Origin: Siphonodentalium dalli
Taxonomy: Eukaryota; Mollusca; Scaphopoda; Gadilida; Siphonodentaliidae
NCBI GenBank assembly: GCA_032622095.1
Contig: CP136066.1
Coordinates: forward strand, 183,122,716-183,186,715
Direction: 5' to 3'
DNA length: 64,000 nucleotides
Under the pieces are notes generated by a model, which saw nothing but the letters and a program-made list of their open reading frames with translations, ran no database searches and had not been told where the DNA came from. The position numbers and the translations under genes are program-made. Shown in pieces: positions 9,521 to 29,451 of this stretch (within the stretch, counting starts at the first letter, position 1; every line of letters begins with the position of its first letter).

Positions 9521-11033
9521 TTGTTACGCCGAGTTCTGTAGTAACTGACGAGTTATGTTGTAGCTCATGAGTTCTGTGTAGTAACAATCGCCGAGTTCTG
9601 TAGTAACTGACGAGTTATGTGGTAGCTCATGAGGTCTGTGTAGTAACAATCGCCGAGTTCTGTAGTAACTGACGAGTTATGTGGTAGCTCATGAGTTCTG
9701 TGTAGTAACAATCGCCGAGTTCGGTAGTAACTGACGAGTTATGTGGTAGCTCATGAGTTCTGTGTAGTAACAATCACCGAGTTGCGTAGTAACTGACGAG
9801 TTATGTGGTAGCTCATGAGTTCTGTGTAGTAACAATCGCCGAGTTGTGTAGTAACTGGCGAGTTATGTGGTAGCTCATGAGTTATGTGTAGTAACAAACG
9901 CCGAGTTGTGTAGTAACTGGCGAGTTATGTGGTAGCTCATGAGTTATGTGTAGTAACAATCGCCGAGTTGTGTAGTAACTGGCGAGTTATGTGGTAGCTC
10001 GTGAGATCTGTGTAGTAACAATCGCAGAGTTGTGTAGTATAGAAAACAGGCTAACGCGTTGTGTAGCAGAAAATCGTCGAGTTTTGTACTAACATTTTTT
10101 GTCTTTTCGAAGACCAGTTTGGACTTTATGCAATATTATATAGTAAATTCAGGTGTGTGAAGTTAGTTTCCCCATTTCTCATACCATTGCTGGACTATTA
10201 TATATGTGGTAGGTAACATACATTCATTCAGGTGCCATGATGCAACTTCAGATAATACACACACGAGGCTGTCCATATCTGTGTGATATATGTGGGGGAT
10301 GCTAAATTCAATCGAGTAACCTGACGAGACATAACAGAATGGACGCAGGTGATCACCCATGTGCTTGTGTTATACGCACATATCTTATCATTGTAATATA
10401 TTCTGGTAACCCGGTGATTCACCAAGTTGAGTTACAGCGTCATGAACGTCAGCCACACACAATCTTACAAAACTAAACATTGAATTTACTATATAAATAT
10501 TGTATAATGTCCAAACGGGTCCTGGGAAAAGAAGAAAAAATTGCTTCTAAACTCGGCGATTCTTTTTTGTTTTTACTACACAATTCGTTGATGTTCTACT
10601 GCAGAACGCGTGACCTCAAATTACTGCATAACTCGTTGCTTTACCACATAACTCGCGAGCTGCAACAAAACAAAACTCGGCGTTTGTTACTACAGAAATC
10701 GTGATCTACCAAAAACTAAAGTTACTACAAAACTCGGCGATTGTTACTACAGAAATCGTGATCTACCAAAAATTAAAGTTACTACAAAACTCGGCGATTG
10801 TTACTACATAAATCGTGATCTACCACAAAACTCGTAAGTTACTACAAAACTCGGCGATTGTTACTACAGAAATTGTGATCTACCAAAAATTAAAGTTACT
10901 ACAAAACTCGGCGATTGTTACTACAGAAACCGTGATCTACCACAAAACTCGTAAGTTACTACAAAACTAGGCGATTGTTACTACAGAAATCGTGATCTAC
11001 CACAAAACTCGTAAGTTACTACAAAACTCGGCG
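9521..11033. mobile_element. foldback element with minisatellite arms
   Basis: The left arm (9521-10040) is about 8 copies of a 62-bp unit beginning CCGAGTTCTGTAGTAACTGA. The right arm (10549-11033) is about 8 copies of a 58-60-bp unit that is the reverse complement of the same theme (CTCGGCGATTGTTACTACAG). A unique spacer of about 500 bp separates them. Inverted arms built of tandem units around a unique centre are the layout of Foldback/Galluhop-type elements. I could not identify a convincing target duplication. No protein is encoded. It lies in the lectin intron. Confidence 0.7.
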
Positions 11034-14868: not shown

Positions 14869-15819
14869 CCATAATCATTGGGGAAAATGGAGACGCAGGG
14901 GCAAGTTATAGAAGCACTGTTATCGAAATATAAACTATGTCAAACAAACAAAATGGACACAGAGAGCTGACCTCTCTCCGCCTCATCACCATGGAGGTGA
15001 CCCCATAAGCATTGGGGAAAATGGAGACGCAGAGGGCAAGCTATACAAGCAACGAACTAGGAAATTAAACTCTACCAATAACAAAAGAAACATGAATATT
15101 CAGAATGACCCCCTCCGCCTCATCGCCATAGAGGCGACCCCATAATCATTGGGGAAAATGGAGACGCAGGGGCAAGTTATAGAAGCACTGTTTTCGAAAT
15201 ATAAACTATGTCAAACAAACAAAATGGACACAGAGAGCTGACCTCTCTCCGCCTCATCACCATGGAGGTGACCCCATAAGCATTGGGGAAAATGGAGACG
15301 CAGAGGGCAAGCTATACAAGCAACGAACTAGGAAATTAAACTCTACCAATAACAAAAGAAACATGAATATTCAGAATGACCCCCTCCGCCTCATCGCCAT
15401 AGAGGCGACCCCATAATCATTGGGGAAAATGGAGACGCAGGGGCAAGTTATAGAAGCACTGTTTTCGAAATATAAACTATGTCAAAAAAAAAATGGACAC
15501 ACAGAGCTGACCTCTCTCCGCCTCATCACCATGGGGGTGACCCCATAAGCATTGGGGAAAATGGAGACGCAGAGGGCAAGCTATAAAAGCAACGAACTAG
15601 GAAATTAATCTCTGCCAATAACAAACTAAACATGAATATTCAGAATGACCCACTCCGCCTCATCGCCATAGAGGCGACCCCATAATCATTGGGGAAAATG
15701 GAGACGCAGGGGCAAGTTATAGAAGCACTGTTTTCGAATTATAAACTATGTCAAACAAAATATTGATATTCAGAACTGATCCTCCACCTCATCGCCAAGG
15801 AGGCAACCCCATAATCATT
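14869..15819. repeat. 271-bp satellite abutting transposase stop
   Basis: The word CCATAATCATTG starts units at 14869, 15140, 15411 and 15680, so the periods are 271, 271 and 269. Each unit is itself a dimer of two diverged half-units of about 135 bp; the second half begins CCATAAGCATTGGGG at 15003, 15274 and 15543. A truncated fifth unit at 15809 overlaps the TAA stop of the transposase (complement of 15818-15820). The gene's 3' untranslated region would therefore consist of this array. Confidence 0.9.
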
Positions 15820-18800
15820 ACTTTGGACAGGGATAGCATTTCCATTTTTTTGAGTATTTGTCTGATTTCTGACACGATTTGTGATACCATTTATCACAAT
15901 GGGAACACTGAACCATATTATCAAATACATCGGGCATAGCACATCCCAGCTGGGCACAGTGTTTGGTGATGATGACACTAGTATACTTCAGTTTTGTTTT
16001 ACAACATAGGTTGTTTTTGGGGAAAGGAGTGAATTTTTTCAACGAAAGACAATTGATTAAGTGAGATCGCATCAAGCGTTGTTGAAATCTGGTAGTCTCA
16101 GTCCTACCGTGGTTTGGGTTGAAACAAAATTCTACTAAGTTTGCCAGTGCGAAGATTCCGCAGTCATCAGAGTTTGATTGTTTCTGTGTGTGTGGTAATT
16201 TTATGGTGACGTCTCCAATATTCGACCCGGATCCATATATAGACCAAAGCTGAATTTGCATTGATGTAGTAAGAGGATCAACTTCAGAAAACAATGAATC
16301 GAAAACGTACACTGCATGATCATATTCGTTCGAAGCATATGTGGATGCTACCCAATGGCTGTATCCAGTGTGATGTATTTGGCCAATGATTCGGTCATGT
16401 CCAAAAGAAGCAAAACAGTTGCTACCTAACGGTAAATACAATCTAGTTGCTATATCTCTAGTTGGAGCAAACAAAGTGTCTTGAAAACCCATTATGTGAG
16501 TGAACTGCGTTTTCAACAACTGTTGAGATGTATTCAATATACCGTCGCAAAGCCAATTGCCTGATTTTAATGTATTTATTTTTTTTGGAGTCAACAACTT
16601 TGGACTAGGAGAAGTTGCCCACAATGGCTTTGTTAATGGTGAGTGGTTTTTTGTTGGCTTCGCGTTTGCTGGTTTTCGCATGAACTTGGCTTTTGATGAA
16701 CTCACATATCGTTGCGGTGAGACAGGAGGCAGCCAAATGCAAGCTGAAGAGTTCGGGGAATTCGAACTCGTCCGTGAGTTCAGAAGCGAGCTATGTGAAC
16801 GACTATTGTGTGGGCTATGCTGATTGGAAAACACGGACTGATCGATAAGAGAATGTGGTGGTATATGCGGCGAGCTAGGTGTGTCACGAACAGATGTTTC
16901 TGGCGTTATGCTTAACATTAAAGGTGAGAGTCCAGAAGTGGATGGTGAGCTCCGTTCCGGTTGAGATCTGATAGGGCTTGAGTTTATGGGTGGCGGGTTC
17001 GGCGAAGCCGGTAGTGTGTACTGCAAAGATTTGGATTTCATTGCATTTGGACATGGGATTGTTTGTGGAATTGGCGCCACTGACATTGATAATGATGGAG
17101 GCAAGTTATCAAAAGCCGATTGATTGCTTTTTTCCTGAGCAAGGATAATGGGGGTCGAAGGCAATAGACTGGAATCTCTGATTGGGGACACTGATATTTC
17201 ATTTCTATTGGAATGGGTTTTTCGACGAGATTTGGGGGTTGATGTCCGATTTGTGGGCGGTGAATGTTTAATTGGGCTGGACAAAGACTGCATTACCTCA
17301 GAATCAGGCGCAGGAATAACATCTAAGTCATTTGGTCTACCCTTCTTGGTGCCAGATTTCTTGTCGGAACGAGAGCGGCCTCGCTTCTTAAGTGCAGTTA
17401 AATTCACTGGTTTTGGTGCGGTGCAGTCCACCTTGCCGACAAGAATTCTGGCAGCCAAGATATGGTAGCATGTGTTTGTAGAAGGGCACTGGCAAGTCTC
17501 TTTGGGGAAGAGCTTGACTGCGTATTTGTCCCCTTTGCTACCTTCAACCATGAATGCTCTCTGATCAGCCACAAACGTTATTTTACTCTTTGATTTTACG
17601 ATATCTAATGCCATTGCTCTTTGTGTGCTGATAGGTTTATGATCATTGTCTGAATCTGATGAAATTTGAGCCTGATCAATATCGCTTTCTTCTTCCACCT
17701 CTTCTGCTTCCCCGTATTTCACAAATTGTACAATGTCATCGGGGGCCAAAACACCTTCTGGAAATAAACACTCCGTCTCACTCATCCTATAACCTATAAA
17801 AACGTTTCTGAGTTGGTAATTTCCCACACCTAATCTACCCCGTAGATATTCTGAGTGATAAAATTTTGCAAGATAATTGAGAGAGAGAATGGCGGAATCC
17901 ATCGGAATTTCTTTCCAATCATGCATGTGCTTGATGACAGCGTTAAATGACTCGGAAGTGTTATTGGTAATGCCGGAAAGTGGGTCATAAATATATAAAG
18001 GCTTCAAAATCCATGCTCCGGCGTACATCATTATATCTGTTTTCATGTTCTTCTCAAAATATAACTTAGCAGCAGAACTCCACTTATCTGAAACTTTTTG
18101 ATATGTTAATTCGAAATCTTCAATAGACCGAGATTTTAGCATATCTGAAAGATCTGTAATATACACGGGAATTTCCGGTTTTTGTGCCCCGAGTTTATAT
18201 TCTAAGTGATTGCTAAAATCTTGTTTTAAGTGGTTCCAACAATATATTATCTTCATTTGAGGGAATATTTCTTTCACAGCTTTGGTGAATGCTGCCTCGC
18301 GATCCATTACAATGGGGATCTCTTTGTTTGACAAATTAGGTATTTTATCACTCACATTTTCGAAGAAACGCAAGTGAAATTTGTCAAATTTTCTTTCATG
18401 AATCAAGAAAGCTATTGGAAATACAGGAGATCCTTCAAAAATAGAAACCCTAATGGTCAAGGTAGAGACATAGAAATCACCTATGTTGTAGGTGGTGTCG
18501 TATCCTAAGACTAAAGGGTGAGTTCCCGTGTCAACGTCCAGCAGTTCGTTAACGAATGAAGACCATTCAGTATAGTGGACAACACAGAACAAGTCTTGAT
18601 CTATGATGCCCAATTCCGGAATTCCCTTTAGTTGCTGACCCAACTGTAGGACGTTGGCGATGGTATCCCTTGATATTCTCCGAGAGTCTAATTCTTTTTG
18701 TCTCACGTATCTTACTTGGCGAACATCTCTTGGATTCAAAATACCCTGATATGCAGAAGGTACATGGTTAGCAACAACATTTTTATATACCTTAGCTGGA

Positions 18801-19287
18801 TACTGATTCGTTACAGATGATTGGACTTCCCTCATTACCGAGGGTGCCGTTCTTTTGAACGGACGATGATTTGTTTTAGCATTGCCATGAGGCGTATCTT
18901 TAAATTGACTTGAGTCGCCAATATATTCTACCAAAATAAGATTGGGATTTTCCTCCAGTATATATACATTTCTTTGAAAAGCACTAGATGATTTTTCTTC
19001 ACCTTCAAGGTGCATGTGAAAATAGTATTTTCTAAAAATTGGATACCACGAGGAAGGCGTGCAATACCCTTACTTCGCCACCTGTAACCGTCACATCTCC
19101 AGTCATCTTTGTGAATATCATTCTGGTAAGCGATCAAATATAATGTACCACTTATTGGTTTGGCAGGGGCTGTATCACTTACCTTTGATGTGTCTGGGTT
19201 TTGCAGAATGTCTTGTACATTTACCAGTGATACAGGTCCGGTTCGTGTGGCATAGACAACACACCTTAGCTGGCCGTCGCTAGCCAT
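15818..19287 (-). CDS. Mutator-like transposase with Ulp1 and PHD domains
   Basis: Catalytic protein of the giant element. The main frame (15818-19015, 1065 codons) contains a MULE DDE domain with Asp173 (Tyr-Asp-Thr-Thr), Asp238 (Met-Asp-Arg-Glu), a Cys259-Trp-Asn-His262 signature and Glu355. A SWIM finger follows (Cys508, Cys510, Cys516, His518), then a Ser/Pro-rich linker (about 560-800). Next is a C48 Ulp1-like protease with His887, Asp906, Gln946 and Cys952 (Asp-Asp-Cys-Gly), and last a PHD finger (Cys1020, 1025, 1037, 1040, His1045, Cys1048, 1060, 1063). The N-terminus lies in a second, overlapping frame (18928-19287, ATG at 19287) carrying a Trp-Arg-Cys-Asp-Gly-Tyr-Arg-Trp motif. Together with the FQRNVYILEE...VEYIG segment of the main frame it resembles a CG-1 DNA-binding domain. 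The two frames must be joined by a one-base shift near 19040-19056, so this copy is broken, frameshifted or misread there. A CAG acceptor at 19308-19310 precedes the ATG. Confidence 0.9.
19038..19056 (-). other. frame break in transposase N-terminal domain
   Basis: Reading toward the C-terminus, the first frame follows the expected domain through Leu-Pro-Arg-Gly. The second frame follows it from Pro-Ile-Phe-Arg-Lys onward. The switch needs loss of one base or gain of two. No intron fits here. A mutation, an assembly error or programmed frameshifting would all explain it. Confidence 0.7.
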
Positions 19288-19737
19288 TCTTCTGCCACGA
19301 TTATTTCCTGAAACAACACAAATTAGTAATGTATATAGTGTTTACATCAATGTTTATGTCAAAATATCTGTATCTTTTAGCATTTCACAATCTCAATAAC
19401 TCAACACAGTTGCGCATCAGTAGACTTTCTTTATTTCAAGTCCATTTGGTTTAAGACAATGGTTTCTAGCTGAGCTGCATGATCGGACGCATGGAGCGAA
19501 GTGGCAATTTGGGCTTGAATTTGAGCACATTAAACATTTATTTCAAAATTGACTGATTGGGGCATATTCAGTCTACTAACTTAAAACGTCCATAAATTTG
19601 GTATGGTATTTATACAGTAGCAATCTGACTAATTCTACGTTCCATTACAGTATAGATCGTGACATCAGAAACTAATATAAAGTACATTAATTATATCTAC
19701 CCCTGTGTGAAGAAAAAAAACAATATGTGGCACTTAC

Positions 19738-21154: not shown

Positions 21155-22408
21155 CAGTTAATTTAAACACATTTTATTTCCAAATCAAAGCAAATAACAT
21201 AATATGCAGATGACATAAATATAGAAAATATAAGAGTTAATTATGGAAATGAGGATCAGACAACAAGCCCGAGGGCTTATGAAGTGTCCTCGATCCTCTT
21301 TGGCGACATGTACTTTCCCCAATAAGTGACGGAGATATTGCTCGGTATAGTATGGTGTATGGAGAGAGAGAGAGCGATAGAGAGAGGAGAGAGAGAGTAG
21401 AAGACAGATGAATCTTGAAATGATGACGGTGGTGGGGAGTTTTCCATAATTGAGTTGATGCATGGTTAAAATTATGCTATATTATCTATAATAAGATGCA
21501 TGCGTCAGACGCCATGGGATGGGGCCAATCGCATTCGCTCTTAACTGGTTCCATCCGTCAAACAAGTTATCAAACAAACACACACACGGCTACGAGTCGT
21601 GGACTATATATCTTCCGTGAGAACAAGTACGCATTCAGCAGCACTAACCCAAAACAAGACAATTCCTATGTCAAGGGTGTTCACTGTGAATTTCGGAGCA
21701 TCGTTCATGTGGATCATTTCACGTATATACAGACTAATAGCAAGTAAGCAATATACAAAATAATCGTTATCGGAAAGCAGTTAGTGCTACATATATTGGT
21801 GGGTATCTTGCTGCCGCATAACGCGACCGGAATCCAAAGCAAGTTGTTACCCGTACAAATCATGGGAACCGTTTCGTTCTCATAATATTTATCTGAACTG
21901 CATTAAAGATACGAACGGCGTTTGCGGTGGGTATGCTGTTAAAATAGCCATATCCGTCAAAAGCCGCCGTATAATATTCTCATGCTAATCAGAAATGTGG
22001 CATACACAGCATGTTATTGTCTATCCCCCCCCCTTTTTAGGTAAACAAAAGCAAAAAACGTTACGTTTCCTGGCTTATGTTTAGATCCGGATATGGAAAC
22101 AATAAAGAGCGTTTATATAATTGCTGTGTGATTAAGTACGTCTTGAAGACACTATACTATTCCTGATTATGCTTGGCATATGAGCGTAACTGTATATATT
22201 TGTGTTCCTTCTGGTGGCGAATTGAACAAATATAGATATTTCTGCAACGAACGCCGTCGTGCCTTTAAACATTTTTTGTTTTCGCAGATACTCAGTTCCC
22301 TTGATCCCCGCAATAGAGTATTCTCAGATGGGACACCATTGGGTCGAGAATCATATATAGTTTTCGTCTGGGCTCTCGATAAAATGTACATTCAAAGAGA
22401 TAGTGGCA
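21155..22408 (-). mobile_element. LINE 3' end, minus copy, MITE-interrupted
   Basis: The minus strand carries the last codons of a non-LTR retrotransposon ORF2 (Leu-Phe-Glu-Cys-Thr-Phe-Tyr...Arg-Glu-Leu-Ser...Glu-Asn-Lys) and then its 3' untranslated region. That region includes an AG-rich microsatellite (21360-21400), an AAGCCCGAGGGCTT hairpin and a terminal AATAAA-like stretch. The plus-strand copy at 24505-25160 has the same order. The reading frame is shifted, and a 358-bp MITE splits it at 21907-22264. The copy is 5'-truncated. Confidence 0.75.
21907..22264. mobile_element. TTAA MITE, family B, nested in LINE
   Basis: The terminal repeats AGATACGAACGGCGTT and (complement) AGGCACGACGGCGTTCGTT are flanked by TTAA at 21903-21906 and 22265-22268. 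The uninterrupted LINE copy reads ...TTAATGCAG at the same point, which proves the insertion and its 4-bp duplication. Internal words (GCGGTGGGTATGCTGT, ATAAAGAGCGTTTATAT) are shared with the copy at 59989-60481. Confidence 0.85.
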
Positions 22409-22519
22409 ATTAGGATGACGCATCATAGACAACAACTATAGACATAACAATTAACAAGATTTTAATAGAACGAAAGCAACAATGACAATATTTATACATG
22501 GATAACTCGTGATACATAA

Positions 22520-23205
22520 TCATCCTAAATACCTCAGAAACACCTTTCTGATTTCGAAGAAATACTTTCGGACACCAGGATTTGTCGGGGTCTGGTGTTG
22601 ATCGCTCAGGTGCACCTCGTCCTCGCGACTAAAGTCTCTCGGATATTTTATTGTTCTAAATTGGATGCAATCTGCTTGTAGTCGTTTCTTCAGCAAACGG
22701 TTGATGATGTTGCGATGGTGAATGTACATATCAGCCGTTAGTTGTTGGTTTTTAAATCTACCTCTCTGAAGTATCTGACCGATGAACACGCGGATGCCGT
22801 TCTCTCTGCATGGTGTTACCACTTTATCTATGAGGGCATTGTATATATCTACTGCGTCTCGCTCAGGGGTGATATCATTAGCCCCTAGCTGAACGAACAT
22901 GGCTTCTGGTTTCCATTGTATTAAGAGATCAAGATATGGTTTGAAGTATTTCCCTCTGCGAATAGCATTATCATCAGGAAACAGCACCATGCCACCGGTA
23001 GTGAACGTCTTGCATTCAGCAGTTAGTAGAAATTCACCCTCGCAAAATTTTGCCAAATTTCTGATATAGCTGCTGCCAAATATCGCGAATTTCGATATGT
23101 CGTTCATTATTGTGTTCGTGTTGGGCAAGTGACCAAACTCAGGTTGTCGGGCAATATTTATGTCTTGCAATGACCCCATATACATAGGCACGTATGTTTG
23201 TTCTA
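22520..23205 (-). CDS. SGNH/GDSL-type hydrolase
   Basis: About 225 codons encode an SGNH hydrolase-like protein. Numbering from the codon at 23191, Phe-Gly-Ser-Ser (38-41) is block I with the nucleophilic serine, Val-Gln-Leu-Gly-Ala-Asn-Asp (100-106) is the block III Gly-x-Asn-Asp motif, and Asp191-Glu-Val-His194-Leu-Ser is the catalytic Asp-x-x-His. Members of the family hydrolyse esters, but no substrate can be read from the sequence. SGNH-like domains are also known in some retroelement ORFs. The frame stays open upstream of 23191 to a TTTTTATAG acceptor ending at 23206, so a 5' exon is likely. A minus-strand GTAAGTG-type donor near 23443 is a candidate. If unspliced, translation would begin at one of the Met codons just inside. 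It lies in the giant element, divergent from the phosphotransferase gene, which begins about 320 bp away. Confidence 0.8.
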
Positions 23206-23523
23206 TAAAAACAAAAGTGAGCTTATGTTATCTGCGATGTGGTCACCCTTTTAGGGTTTCGTCGGATCCGACATTCAATTGTGCATATTCGCTCAAGTTC
23301 TGAATGTGTGAACAACCAGAGTGAGATACAATCACTTTTCAAAGAAACAATCAGCTGAATAAATCAACGTGGTCAAAAACAACAAATAACAATCAAAGCA
23401 CTGACGGTGAACATATAAATCTCCATGTATGCACATACACTTACAAGACTCCTAATCGCATTTCATGACTTCACGAACAAGAAAATCAGTCGTTTTTCGT
23501 TGTTTTACCACATCGCAACAAGT
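23206..23523. promoter_or_regulatory. divergent intergenic region, candidate bidirectional promoter
   Basis: It separates the hydrolase (minus) from the Tpt1-like gene (plus). No TATA box or other motif stands out. The call rests only on head-to-head spacing. The plus-strand frame is open upstream to an ATG at 23425, so part of this stretch could be coding or 5' leader. Confidence 0.3.
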
Positions 23524-26490
23524 ATGAATCAGAAAAAATCGTCCATTTCCAGGAAACTGGTCTGGTATCTTCGCCACAACAACAACGTACCAGGTGAGTC
23601 AATAAACATCCATCTATATATTGTGAAATTTATATCGAGGATATCATAGCGGTATATCCCATGTAGATTTTAATCAAAATTTTACACGTTGAATACATTT
23701 GTTAACTATAATGTCAAAATTAAGTCACAGAAGGAAACGAAGAATCTGGATTTATCTTAAAACTTTGCAATTATAATTTGGGGTGGCAAGTCATAACATA
23801 AATGAGTCGGAGATGAGAGGAAGGTATTCATATATACCGAATAGAATTGGTTGTCATACCACTGCCAACCGGGGGATCATTTTGTTAAAATATTATTTTT
23901 TTTTGTATTGGGAATTAATATTGTATGTCCTAATACGATGAACGCTCTCTTTGCATTATATATCATTAAATGCCCACTCATTCGCCCATTCAGTTATAAA
24001 AGTAAAATATTACATTTCAGCCAACGGTTACGTTTGTTGCAAACAATTGGCGATGGATTTGTCCAATGGATGGAATAATGTGACTACCAGTGACATAATT
24101 GATGCCGTAGCCTCCGGCTACACCCGAGGACGGGTCACGATGAAAATGAGTGATTCAGGATTGTATTTGTTTAAAGCGGAGCAAGGACACACGGTAAAGG
24201 TATGTCTAATGATTGCTAATACAAATAGTATAAATGATATATATTTGTATTGACAATACGAGGCGGTATATATACTTATCAACAGTTCTTGTATTTGCAA
24301 CCAATCTTATGCATCCTTAGAAATTACTTACACAAAATTTGGAAGTTCGAATGAACCATGTTCATTTAAATTAACAGAATATCATGACACTATATAACAC
24401 AACTAAATGATCCCAAAGTGCAGATATCGAATAAAAATCATGTAAAGAACCGCCACAGTCGTGATTACACATGTACCTTGAAATAGAACCGTAACCTACT
24501 GACAGATAACCATGTAACAATTTCCCCCTTCTGTCTATGTGGGGAATTTGAGACAACTTACCACTATCTCTTTGAATGTACATTTTATCAAGAGCCCAGA
24601 AGAGAACTATATGACTCCCTACCAAATGTTGCATTATCTGAGAATACACTAATGCGGGGGTCAAGGGAGCTTAGTCTTTGCGAAAACAAACAAATATTTA
24701 ATGCAGTACAGACATATATTATGAGAACAAAAAGATTTCCATGATCTGTATGGGTAACACATTGCTTTGGATTCCGGCCGCGTTATGCGGCAGCACGACG
24801 TTCCCCATTATATATGTAGTACTAAATGTCTTCCGATAACGATTATTTTGTAAGTTACTTACTTGTCACTATCCTGTATATACATGAAATGATTCTACAT
24901 GAAGAATCTCTCTCTCTCTCTCTCTCTCCTTTAAAAATATTATTTCTATTATTCCCGTCTGATCGATACCCCTCCCTCATTTATTGGGGAAGGGGCATGT
25001 CGCCAAAGAGGAGAAGAATTCATATAAGCCCTCGGGCTTGTTGTCTGATCCTCATGTCCATACATTATCTCTTGTATGTTGTATATGTATGTCATTTGTG
25101 TATTATGTGTATTATGTTTGGAAATAAAAATATGTTTACATTAACCTACATAATTTGTGAGTAGGAGGCTAATGCTCCAAAGTATCGACACACATCGGGA
25201 TATTTCCTCGCCTATTTTACAGAAGGATAGCGCATGTACAATTTATACTCAGTGTTTGTCTTCAGAATTTGTTTCACAGTCGGTATGCTACCGAGAACAA
25301 AGAAATTACGTTCACAAAGCTTGATTTTCAGTGATTACATGTTGATAATTACACGTTAACTCGCTATATCCGAGTTAAATGTTATCTAAAGTTCAGACTG
25401 GATGGTTGTTATATTCGTATGTGTAAGCCCATATATATCAGTCGATTTGATATTAGGTCGATCAAGGCAAATATTATATCAAATTAATAACCCGGTATTC
25501 AATATCCTTTCATCATATTTTTCAGGTGTGTCCTAAATTGATGGAGTATTGGGTGTATCAACCACGAACAAATGAAATAGTTTTCCATCTCACCTTTTTT
25601 GACGCACTGAAAGGAATATTAGATGACGGCATCCAGCCCATGACGCGAGCATTTGTACACCTGGTTGTGTGTCCATCCGATCAGGAGGAGCATATCATTG
25701 GAGGTATGTAAATTCATTGAGGTATGGACATTTGTCCACCATTTATCGCGCATGGTAATTATTAACAGACATGAACTTTCGATCCGATCAGCAGGAGCAT
25801 ATTAGTCCAGGAGATATTGATCGACCTCTGCACCCCCCCCCCCCAGGACTCAATATCAGGATCTAATATATATTTTGGGACTTCGGTCTGTTTGTTTGTC
25901 TGTTAGCTATGGCCGGGAAAACTGCTGGACGGATTTCGACGAAATTTTATACCTACGGGTAATATAGTCCGCGTAGTGTTTTGGACGGGCCTTACCTTAT
26001 TCTTCAGAATGGTCAATTCAAGGTAAAATCTGGTAAACCGACTGATTTCGACGAAATTTGATACCTTTTGGTACTTTGTCCGGGGAGTGTTTTGGACGGG
26101 TCAAATAGTGACTCCGACCCGACCTTGACCTTCAAAATGATCAATTCAAGGTCAAAGCCCGGATGAAGTCGGGTCACCTGCTAGTTTGATATAACTAAAT
26201 TGTTATTAAGTTATGATGTATTTGTGTGATCTGCCGATTTTGGGCATATAGTTTTTGTTTTAAATTCCGACCCTTGATACATAAATGAACTCTAAAACTA
26301 CTTAAACATAAATATTAAATTTCTCGTTTCAGAACGTAGAAATGCCAGGAGATACTCTGCTATGGTTCAGATCAGTGCACGTAAGTGCTTAGAAGTCGGA
26401 TTCATATTTTACAGAAATAATCAACGGAACACTCTCCTGTGTCAACATGCCATTCCATCCAAGTTCATCGTCAGAATGGAAGGGTTGTAG
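23524..26490 (+). CDS. Tpt1/KptA-like RNA 2'-phosphotransferase, four exons
   Basis: Exons 23524-23593, 24021-24199, 25526-25703 and 26333-26490 join with GT-AG borders and matching phases (1, 0, 1) into 585 bases, giving 194 residues, close to the family norm. Tpt1/KptA uses NAD+ to remove the splice-junction 2'-phosphate of tRNA, making ADP-ribose 1'',2''-cyclic phosphate; some members ADP-ribosylate nucleic-acid ends. Visible signatures are Ile-Ser-Arg-Lys-Leu...Leu-Arg17-His18, Gly-Arg61-Val, Lys-Ala-Glu-Gln-Gly-His80, Phe-His104-Leu-Thr (His-Gly-Thr in most members), Met-Thr-Arg124-Ala-Phe-Val-His-Leu, and a C-terminal Phe-Tyr-Arg...Ile-Pro-Ser-Lys-Phe-Ile block. The expected Arg-His-Arg-Arg tetrad is complete. 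No frameshift or stop is seen, even though introns 2 and 3 hold a LINE tail and a dispersed repeat. An in-frame ATG at 23425 would add 33 residues. The gene lies between the TIRs of the giant element. Confidence 0.85.
24505..25160 (+). mobile_element. LINE 3' end, plus copy in Tpt1 intron 2
   Basis: An open frame ending at the TGA 24742-24744 encodes a Cys-Leu-Cys-Gly-Glu...Tyr-His-Tyr-Leu-Phe-Glu-Cys zinc-knuckle tail typical of non-LTR retrotransposon ORF2 C-termini. A 3' region follows with CT repeats (24905-24928), the AGCCCTCGGGCTT hairpin and AATAAA near 25122. It is 5'-truncated. It matches the minus copy at 21155-22408 in inverted orientation. Confidence 0.8.
25840..26188 (+). repeat. 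dispersed repeat, family D
   Basis: It lies in intron 3 of the Tpt1-like gene. It contains GACGGATTTCGACGAAATTT twice and ends with a run of AAGGTCAAGGTC-like words and CACCTGCTAGTTTGATATAA. The reverse complement recurs at 32213-32410. It is probably a short interspersed or non-autonomous element; the class is unknown. Confidence 0.6.
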
Positions 26491-27479
26491 ATGTAGTCAT
26501 ATATACCATAGCTGAGTCACAGATGGAATGCTGGTATTCATGCGTGTGTACCAAGTACTGTGCCCGGCCATATAAATACCATTACGCATGGGGGGGGGGG
26601 GGCGTAACAACACTTTCTAGCAAATACAAAAGCTGTCTCCATAAAATCCTTGGTCCATGAAAAGAACAATCGTAATGTCTGCAACGCTTTCTATTGTACA
26701 CTTTGCACCGTCTCATCAACTAAAATAAACATACATATATGACCATATACTAGTATGAAAACTTTATTTAAATCAAATACACGACATCGTTCTTGTAGAG
26801 CGACATGCATTGACAACACTGGGCATAAAATCCAAATATGATTTGTTAAATTTTATTAAATGAAATCAGTGATGACCTTGGCATATTGATGCACTTAAAA
26901 CTGATTGTATTTACTAATTTTATTTACTTTATTGATACACGCTACCAGCATATAACAATTATCTAGTTTCATTATATCACATCTTCTGAGTGCTGAGACA
27001 TATTTGATTTCTAATTCCGTTTCTATGTTGGACACTACCATAATTTAAAATTTCGACTATATACATGTATGCTTGTATGCACCATTTACCACACATTTTT
27101 TCCTTCCTGTTTCATTGTTTTTCCTACCTACTCCATTATCTTCTCAATCACACCCAACCCTTCTCAACCCCGCACTCGCTTAACCTACTTCACAAAAAAC
27201 CTGAGAAAACATAACTATATTCAAATCCCCGCTTTCTTTACCATGCAGCTGTCTCTATTGACACTCGGGGTAACATTTCTAGAGGAAAGGATTTTTATAA
27301 AAGCCATAGGCTTATTGCTTGTTATCATATCGCCATTTGAACTATTTGTTATTTTTCTATGTATACATTGTAAATGTGACGTTCTGTTTTTTCGTTCTAA
27401 TAAATTATTGTTAACACTCTTAAAAGTTATCTATACCGTCTGTGTATATACAGTCGCCCTATAGTATACATAGAACATG
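26491..27479. other. interior of giant element, no gene seen
   Basis: AT-rich. A 131-codon plus-strand frame at 27069-27464 is made of hydrophobic, low-complexity residues from a T-rich stretch, and I do not regard it as a gene. Confidence 0.5.
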
Positions 27480-29451
27480 TATAGGGTAGTCAATAAAGAG
27501 CGTTTGTTGAAGCATTTATTGCGAGGGTCTTAATTGCAACTAAGAGTCCTTTAAAGGTACTCAACCCGATAAAACTCCTCTCAATTACTATTTCAATGGC
27601 TTCGGGGGTCAAAAATATTTGATTCGAGTCGAGGAAGTCACCCATCAAAGCTCAGATTTGTTAGATATCGATTTTAGAAATCTATTATTTTTCATTATCG
27701 GGAATTGTTTCTGGCCCAGAAGACAGTAAAAAATTCGTTGTTATTACCCACTTGATCATAGAGTTATCCATCCTTGTCTGTTTGAATATAATTTTGGCGT
27801 AAAATCTCGAGCATGTTACCAAATTGACGGCAGTTATTGGTACTCATCTCGAGAACATAAGAATTTTCAAAAATCAATATCTAATAACTCTGAGCTTTGT
27901 TTGATGGGTTCCTCGACTCGAATCAAATATTTTTTACCCCCAAAGCCAAAGAAATAGTAATATAGGACCCTCTGATCGGATTGTTGTTGTTGGAATCTGT
28001 TGAGATGGGGACCCTCTTTACGGGTTGAGTACCTTTAACATCATGCCTCCATTTTAAAAAAACTGGTAATTTGTTTACTTAGAAGCCACAACATGCATGT
28101 TAGATTTGACAATTCCAATTTACAAAAATATTCATGATGCATAATGCCCCATTATCATTATGTTTGTACAGTCTGTCAGGATGACTGAGGTGTCACTGGC
28201 TTTAAAGATTATCCCGCACGAAGAGCTGTGTTAATTTTCTATTGTTTATGGTGTTCATTAATTTGCTTCAGATACTAATGAAATAATGCGGTTAAGCTGA
28301 TAATCTGAAATTCAGTGATTTCATTGGCCTTAGCACAGTGTGGTGCGAACACATCTCATCTTTGGTCGCCAAAAAAACTAAACTAAACAAAACACAAGGC
28401 AAAGATGGCATGTATTCCAATAAAATGTGTGCGCGCAGTGTTCGTGATATACGAGAGACTACACAATCATGGATTTAATTAAAATTCGAGTTTCACACGT
28501 AAGTGTTTATATAAGTCTATAAAAAAAATTGGGTATTATTTCCAACAGTCTGACCATTGACATATTCATGCGTTCAAACCAGTTAATCTATTTTGTAACT
28601 TGGCTTTTAGTCGCCGGGCTCCGGCATCTGGGCTTTTAGTCACAACTGAAGTGCGAATATTTTGGAGCGAATTTCTGCAACAATTTCACCGCGTGGTGGA
28701 CCCATTTGGAAAAAAATACATTCCCTGTGTCTAATCCTACATTTTGATATACTATACGCCCCATTATATTGAATATACCAGCTGAAATCGATCGTGTAAA
28801 TGTAAACATCGAGTCTATTTTTAGCTGTTTTATCGGCGCTTGTTTGCGTTTCGCTATTACAGTTTTCGCACTAAAACAGCCATATTGTAGATAAAAACGA
28901 GTGCACAGTATTCCACTGCGTTATTTGATACCTAAAACTTGGTGTTTGCTAGCGTATTCGTCGAGAAATCTAAATTCTAAACATTAATGTCGAACGCAGT
29001 TTTTCGTGTTTGTGGCATTTTATGTTAGGTCAGTTTTCGACCGAATAATGCAACTTCCGGTGTCCGTTCAGTGGCGGGGTTAATATGTGTGGATAGGGCG
29101 AATATCGGCCTTTCGTTAGACACCAAAATGAGCGCCCTACGCCCTGTATTCCTCGAGATATCGGCCGTTCCACGCAATTTGAAATTCTGTTCCGCAGATT
29201 GCCATGCTATCCCAAATTTCACCCCATGTTAGGTCAGTTTTCGATCAAATAATGCAACTTCTGGTGTCCGGTCAGTGGCGGGGTTAATATGTGTGGATAG
29301 GGCGAATGTGGGCCTTTCGTTAGACACCAACATGAGCGCCCTACGCCCTGTATTCCTCGAGATATCGGCCGTTCCACGCAATTTGAAATTCTGTTCCGCA
29401 GATTGTCGTTCTATTCCATATTCCATCCCATTCCGCAGATTGTCATGTCCC
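27480..29451. repeat. right TIR of giant element with MITE
   Basis: It is the reverse complement of 11792-13282. The inner border is TATAGGGTAGTC at 27480 and the outer end is ...GATTGTCATGTCCC at 29451. Removing the MITE and one TTAA (484 bp) leaves about 1488 bp against 1491 bp on the left. Confidence 0.9.
27555..28034. mobile_element. TTAA MITE, family A, in right TIR
   Basis: It is 480 bp with ends AGGTACTCAACCCG in both directions and TTAA at 27551-27554 and 28035-28038. The left TIR (around 13206-13220) is the empty site with a single TTAA, so boundaries and duplication are exact. TTAA duplication is typical of piggyBac and Kolobok superfamilies. The element is non-autonomous. Confidence 0.9.

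Follow-up and report, generated by a model that had tools for sequence, protein, structure and literature searches.

The window, a 64,000-bp stretch of the 2.23-Gb genome of the scaphopod Siphonodentalium dalli (C6:183122716-183186715), holds a gene of the Tpt1/KptA RNA 2'-phosphotransferase family inside a DNA transposon. The gene is best explained as cargo of a Rehavkus-like Mutator-like element (MULE), captured long ago from a eukaryotic host as intron-bearing DNA and kept under purifying selection beside a gene for an SGNH/GDSL-type hydrolase; a probability of about 85% is given to this reading.

The Tpt1 gene and its element

The four exons of the Tpt1 gene (Table 1) join at GT-AG borders with intron phases 1-0-1 and encode 194 amino acids. 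The preliminary description of this stretch had given the same four exons, with R17-H18, R61 and R124 in the protein, and the joining through the exon 2 donor at 24199 (AAG/GTATGT) bears it out. This donor is preferred to an alternative exon end at 24193, which would give 192 amino acids, because the corresponding site is used both in the host Tpt1 intron and in an intron-free relative. The assignment to Tpt1/KptA made there is upheld by Pfam, where the 192-residue version matched PF01885 (PTS_2-RNA) with 69.8 bits against a cut-off of 26 (E 3.8e-19), residues 5-173 of the window protein aligning to positions 3-172 of the 177 in the profile. The protein also aligns with solved Tpt1 structures in phmmer, the top one being 6ede (E 1.6e-6), and R17, H18, R61 and R124 fall onto the Arg-His-Arg-Arg tetrad described for the enzyme of C. 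thermocellum (CthTpt1, PMC6333775). The HGT motif, whose His and Thr side chains bind the 2'-OH of NAD+, reads His-Leu-Thr at positions 104-106, so that Leu takes the place of Gly between an unchanged His and Thr; this reading, also noted earlier, turned out to belong to a family-wide pattern. Judged from its sequence, the gene is apparently an intact member of the family.

A chance grouping of exons was considered as well and is ruled out by the Pfam match together with the intron-free relative, in which all three junctions are joined.

The position of the gene inside a transposon, which the preliminary description had proposed, is shown by inverted repeats, a target-site duplication and a transposase. 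The two arms of the inverted repeat are 99.44% identical over 1428 columns (about 1.4 kb), and the element is measured at 17,660 bp because AAATAATA flanks these arms on both sides. The MULE DDE transposase domain (PF10551) was recognized in the window transposase with 35.1 bits (cut-off 27.6). This transposase has one frame change between about 18928 and 19069, and a copy on C5 that is 99.67% identical to it is open across the same stretch.

Distant families with the same three genes

The combination of transposase, SGNH hydrolase and Tpt1 is not confined to near-identical copies. Tpt1 exons were surveyed by a six-frame search of the genome with the window protein, the 150 exon rows retained being the best 150 of 178 candidates, and among these were weaker, intron-split relatives of the window gene. 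A second complete element, on C4 (E4), measures 18,341 bp, with arms 98% identical over 1,013 nt and a 9-bp duplication ATAAATGTG; besides Tpt1 and the SGNH gene it has a transposase gene, which is split in this copy. Another on C7 (E7) has an open transposase frame of 1,186 amino acids, an SGNH gene and a four-exon Tpt1; terminal repeats of E7 were not found in the stretch examined. With respect to the window copy, the transposases of E7 and E4 are 60% and 54% identical and the SGNH proteins 37% and 39%. The SGNH homologue of E7 reaches 40.4 bits with PF13472, above the cut-off of 32.9 that the window protein does not attain (Table 1).

The two cargo genes also travel together. The exon rows were merged by hand into 104 Tpt1-like places, gypsy copies and fragments included, and compared with SGNH matches (99 of 104 rows) and transposase matches (part of 135 rows). 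An SGNH relative lies within 10 kb of Tpt1 at 27 of these 104 places, against 0.09 expected, and the two genes stand head to head in 28 of the 29 pairs, the single exception joining neighbouring copies. The 27 paired places fall into about seven families by our own grouping and are therefore not independent of each other; the layout is constant.

Inverted repeats of 1.4 kb with an 8-bp target duplication in the window and of 1.0 kb with a 9-bp duplication in E4 agree with a Mutator element, for which a duplication within 8-10 bp is required. The label Rehavkus-like is used because a PHD finger and a minisatellite, which are described as features of the Rehavkus group (PMC6446971), appear to be present, and is thus an assignment by described features. 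A PHD finger match (PF00628) is found at the C-terminus of the transposase in the window copy, in E7, in E4 and in a further copy (L052), all four scores (14.5-18.0 bits) falling short of the cut-off of 24. The tandem array lies directly past the transposase open reading frame (ORF) in E7 and between that ORF and the left repeat in the window; that of E4, some 2.3 kb beyond the ORF, may belong to a dispersed repeat. From what is described of Rehavkus in PMC6446971, the elements share with it a MULE transposase, whose end may be PHD-finger-like, a minisatellite next to the ORF and, in E4, a 9-bp duplication. They differ from it in the length of their inverted repeats (about 1-1.4 kb against 26-400 bp in the table of that paper), in the 8-bp duplication of the window copy and in the additional SGNH and Tpt1 genes.

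Other copies of the window element

Among the matches listed, near-identical Tpt1 exons belong to two copies on C1 and to further ones on C3 and on C7, the latter represented by exons 3 and 4 only, and isolated exon 4 sequences occur elsewhere. Moreover, 12 pairs of the terminal repeats were read by eye among the best 40 of 1981 candidates. Three of them are long (8.5, 10.0 and 17.66 kb) and hold Tpt1 exons, all four in two cases and exons 3 and 4 in the one on C7. Other two-ended copies of the element thus do carry the gene, an outcome opposite to the consistent lack that would have spoken against its being cargo. The 8.5-kb copy on C3 is 99.55% identical to the window over 22702-28532; its SGNH gene gives an incomplete match that contains one stop. 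From the comparison of long and short copies it follows that transposase-free derivatives can keep the Tpt1 half of the element while others lose Tpt1. A transposase copy on C7 (76.3 Mb) is adjoined by a partial SGNH gene.

Conservation and selection

The same four exons with phases 1-0-1 are present in three further gene models (L013, L015 and L017), of which L013 and L017 are near-copies; in L016 the two junctions seen have phases 0-1. Protein identity among the six best families is 31-55%. Differences between them affect 54-74% of third codon positions and 28-45% of second positions, so that synonymous sites come close to saturation and second positions are held. This pattern argues for purifying selection, and these sequence comparisons indicate that the Tpt1 cargo has been under it. 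R61, R124, H104 and T106 are kept in all six of these families, and R17-H18 in all four for which exon 1 could be modelled. A wider set of 20 models of related copies includes many that are fragments or decayed. Within this set the R61 position is Arg in 13 of 13 readable models, R124 is retained in 17 of 19 and R17-H18 in seven of eight; the NAD+ motif has the form H[LMF]T in 15 of 18 and HGT in none of the 18. The model that departs at the R17-H18 site (L023, Thr-Thr) probably has a mis-modelled exon 1, and one other (L014) contains an odd extra micro-exon.

It could be supposed that the element merely took up a fragment of a host gene and carries it without any function of its own, as MULEs are described to do with host gene fragments (PMC6446971); that the gene is kept in some non-autonomous copies and lost from others, and that some copies are decayed, would fit such a passenger. 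Nevertheless frames, splice sites and catalytic residues have stayed intact in families only 31-55% alike with nearly saturated synonymous sites, and the SGNH partner has been kept as well, which makes passive carriage very unlikely.

Several observations weigh against cargo conserved by selection. The nine short repeat pairs among the 12 (3.6-5 kb) have no Tpt1 exon among the matches listed, and because of these copies Tpt1 would not be needed in cis; likewise, no Tpt1 is among the matches listed near two high-identity transposase copies (C5:134.7 Mb and C7:76.3 Mb). Exon 1 was looked for and not found in families L016 and L018, and the last junction of L018 has phase 0 instead of 1. The key position R124 is occupied by Gln in L020 and by Lys in L035, the NAD+ motif reads HPS in L028, HLP in L030 and HCT in L035, and stops interrupt several related copies. 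The Gly of HGT is replaced throughout the transposon copies, a change that could alter the use of NAD+. Finally, the whole survey covers one genome.

Origin of the gene

A host Tpt1 gene with HGT has exons at about C6:143056.6-143070.7 kb (C6:143056569-143070724; L045-L047), on the same contig and 40 Mb from the window; the stretch examined did not yield its last exon. Host-type exons are also present at C9:175214797-175229912 (L048 and L049), and there are probably two host-type Tpt1 genes. Of the four host introns, placed by eye, the first (phase 1) precedes GF, the second (phase 0) follows QGHSVE, the third (again phase 0) precedes GLCKMKR and the last (phase 1) interrupts VIS-G. In the transposon gene an intron of phase 1 stands one codon earlier, relative to GY, one of phase 0 follows EQGHTVK and one of phase 1 interrupts IIG-E, so that three of the four host introns have a counterpart of equal phase at almost the same place. 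The shared introns suggest the capture of a genomic, intron-containing gene; on the evidence of gene structure, Tpt1 would have been taken from a eukaryotic host as DNA with its introns included.

The same intron phases would be seen if the window gene were the host's own Tpt1 with a transposon inserted in or around it, and they are all that favours this, fitting a capture equally well. The host exons with HGT at C6:143.06 Mb, the further host-type exons at C9:175.2 Mb (where the HGT exon was not modelled) and the near-identical transposon-borne copies between matching repeat ends on several chromosomes leave this explanation practically no probability. The gene is thus not a single-copy host Tpt1, and an inserted transposon is ruled out by the separate host exons and the multi-copy element.

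In a tree of 18 rows (one of 19 aligned rows, L022, was dropped), which included host, gypsy-borne, mouse, yeast, archaeal and bacterial Tpt1, the eight transposon-borne rows sit on a long branch as a single clade (support 100/100). The divergent lineage that the preliminary description had suspected from His-Leu-Thr is therefore seen in the tree as a clade apart from host Tpt1. The host and canonical rows are mostly unresolved, and the two host rows did not group together. When compared with canonical Tpt1/KptA/TRPT1 proteins (PF01885), the transposon proteins agree in the whole-domain match, the Arg-His-Arg-Arg tetrad, the His and Thr of the NAD+ motif and MxRxxVHL, whereas they are unlike them in being carried by a DNA transposon, in having mostly H[LMF]T for HGT and in their long separate branch.

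A copy at C3:204105000-204108500 (L029) is an intron-free, decayed version of the L015-type gene, in which all three junctions are joined and three stops interrupt the model. Because of this joining, the splice sites of the L015 family are confirmed independently of RNA data. No poly(A) tail was seen in L029, and a retrocopy is not proven. An insertion of about 520 bp lies inside its exon 2. In a cluster at C3:81.56-81.86 Mb (L028 and L030) exons 3 and 4 are fused.

Parasitic elements with a KptA of their own are known, as the gene is described for phages and a few eukaryotic viruses (PMC9503650), among them sawfly baculoviruses (PMC3230848). These differ from the present case in their distance, the phage relatives (7 records) being 24.5-25.9% identical to the window protein. 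A scan of IMG/VR gave six pattern matches and a scan of GTDB genomes 13, none of which was confirmed as a relative by tblastn; both scans required short conserved peptides and may miss distant relatives. A recent import from bacteria or phage was rejected on these two scans and the distance of the phage records.

Tpt1 in Ty3/gypsy-type retrotransposons

The best PF01885 matches in the genome lie outside the transposon family, as single-exon Tpt1 domains in long frames, and HGT is present in the pieces examined. The frame that precedes Tpt1 codes for reverse transcriptase, RNase H and integrase in L037 and for integrase in L040 and L041, and in each case the integrase frame ends in a PHD finger. 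A TatD nuclease domain shares the frame of Tpt1 in two of the three families scanned (L001 and L041), the frame of L040 running off the piece examined. By their domain content, Ty3/gypsy-type retrotransposons have apparently captured an intron-free Tpt1, which would make at least two captures overall by two classes of transposon, each along the route natural to its class. The three gypsy rows do not form one group in the tree. Besides L040 and L041, such loci are found at C7:22.99 Mb (L001), C1:15.85 Mb (L039) and C5:114.01 Mb (L037). Two gypsy Tpt1 copies on C5 are 9,807 bp apart.

Possible role of the enzyme

From the tetrad and the NAD+ motif that have been kept, an NAD+-dependent enzyme is predicted whose targets would be phosphorylated ends of nucleic acids. 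Human TRPT1 ADP-ribosylates 5'-phosphate RNA and DNA, and replacement of any tetrad residue with Ala abolishes its ADP-ribosylation of RNA; the tetrad is described as needed for both activities of Tpt1 (PMC6582358). It is likely, because of the long retention, that the element benefits from Tpt1, and a benefit in some form is considered probable, more so than any single substrate. As for the mechanism, the protein would bind NAD+ and a phosphate at a nucleic-acid end and transfer ADP-ribose to that end, which would either mask a 5'-phosphate or remove a 2'-phosphate as Tpt1 does. It would work in trans, its targets being RNA or DNA ends that arise in the course of silencing or transposition, and the modified ends may help the element to escape host control. 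This exact chain of events is offered tentatively.

One form of this scheme is an anti-silencing role, in which ADP-ribose would cap the 5'-phosphates of small RNAs or their precursors and so block their binding by Argonaute/PIWI proteins. PIWI and Argonaute proteins bind 5'-phosphate. MULE and Ty3/gypsy-type elements differ in chemistry and both carry Tpt1 here, and RNA silencing may be a host step that they share. In addition, human TRPT1 modifies 5'-phosphate RNA, 7-mers and 12-mers included (PMC6582358), and VANC is known as an anti-silencing protein of plant MULEs (PMC6446971). The idea is possible and rather on the unlikely side. Its broader version, in which both classes captured Tpt1 separately (one as DNA with introns, the other intron-free) and use it to counter silencing by ADP-ribosylating the phosphate ends of small RNAs or precursors, is questionable as a whole.

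The enzyme may instead act on the DNA of its own element, by ADP-ribosylating the 5'-phosphate ends that the transposase makes and so steering repair or insertion. TRPT1/Tpt1 enzymes do modify 5'-phosphate DNA (PMC6582358) and the element shows the hallmarks of cut-and-paste transposition, but the short copies, which share these repeats and have no Tpt1 among the matches listed, have spread, and the captures by retrotransposons are less easily explained; a role of this kind is unlikely.

Repair of RNA, that is the removal of 2'-phosphates after host nucleases have cut transposon transcripts or tRNAs, is thought of for phage KptA, and the viral genes are read in this way (PMC9503650). R17 and R61, which align to residues implicated in step 2 (PMC6333775), are kept. 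Such a function is nevertheless doubtful, since no RNA ligase or 2H phosphoesterase match to Pfam was obtained in the subset of element ORFs scanned, and a host Tpt1 is already present.

Among known systems, the VANDAL elements of plants are MULEs with a non-transposase gene, VANC, that is thought to help them, as may be the case here; VANC induces hypomethylation, whereas Tpt1 is an NAD+-dependent enzyme (PMC6446971). The main text of PMC6446971 does not contain 'phosphotransferase', 'GDSL' or 'hydrolase'. No word starting with 'transpos' occurs in the main text of PMC9503650; in PMC7955679 such a word stands in the title of a reference only, and in PMC3230848, on the KptA of sawfly baculoviruses, a retrotransposon is named in a reference. 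PMC4053983 bears on the question through a domain count. In the open-access literature, covered mostly by titles and the openings of abstracts and so weak evidence of absence, no DNA transposon with a selected cargo of the ADP-ribosyltransferase superfamily was found, nor anything relevant on Tpt1/KptA/TRPT1 in connection with transposons. The window element would be a case of such a transposon; its parts are of known kinds and their combination is, to our knowledge, new. The role of Tpt1 in animals has been called elusive, because outside plants and fungi no pathway producing its 2'-phosphate substrate is seen in most organisms, and tRNA splicing in mouse knock-out cells is comparable in level to that of the wild type (PMC6582358). 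Its uptake and retention by two parasitic classes would say that Tpt1 matters to transposons, and they should offer a tractable system for finding the nucleic-acid end on which it acts.

Features of the window

Table 1. Features of the transposon and its genes (window positions)
Feature	Start	End	Strand	Remarks
Whole transposon, Rehavkus-like Mutator (MULE)	11792	29451		17,660 bp; terminal inverted repeats and flanking 8-bp duplication
Target-site duplication, left	11784	11791		AAATAATA
Target-site duplication, right	29452	29459		AAATAATA
Left terminal inverted repeat	11792	13218	+	tandem duplication of about 204 bp within
Right terminal inverted repeat	28027	29451	-	
Minisatellite	14857	15760		137/271-bp units; adjoins end of transposase ORF
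Transposase gene	15818	19341	-	MULE domain, Ulp1-type protease (C48), weak C-terminal PHD-finger match; ORFs 15818-19069 and 18928-19341
SGNH/GDSL-type hydrolase gene	22520	23227	-	head to head with Tpt1; PF13472 26.0 bits, below cut-off 32.9
Tpt1 exon 1	23524	23593	+	ATG start; codes R17-H18
Tpt1 exon 2	24021	24199	+	codes R61 and EQGH block
Tpt1 exon 3	25526	25703	+	codes H104-L-T106, R124 and MTRAFVHL
Tpt1 exon 4	26333	26490	+	includes stop codon

Inverted repeat blocks at 21242-22409 and 24558-25062, 78-97% alike, flank the SGNH gene and exons 1 and 2 of Tpt1, the second block sitting in Tpt1 intron 2; both are probably older nested repeats. The N-terminal part of the L052 transposase frame (C5:134.737 Mb), residues 2-100, gives a match to the CG-1 DNA-binding domain (25.4 bits, cut-off 23.5). 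Just to the left of the element, tandem arrays with 62-bp units (9527-10039) and with 57/117-bp units (10670-11033) are in part inverted copies of one another.

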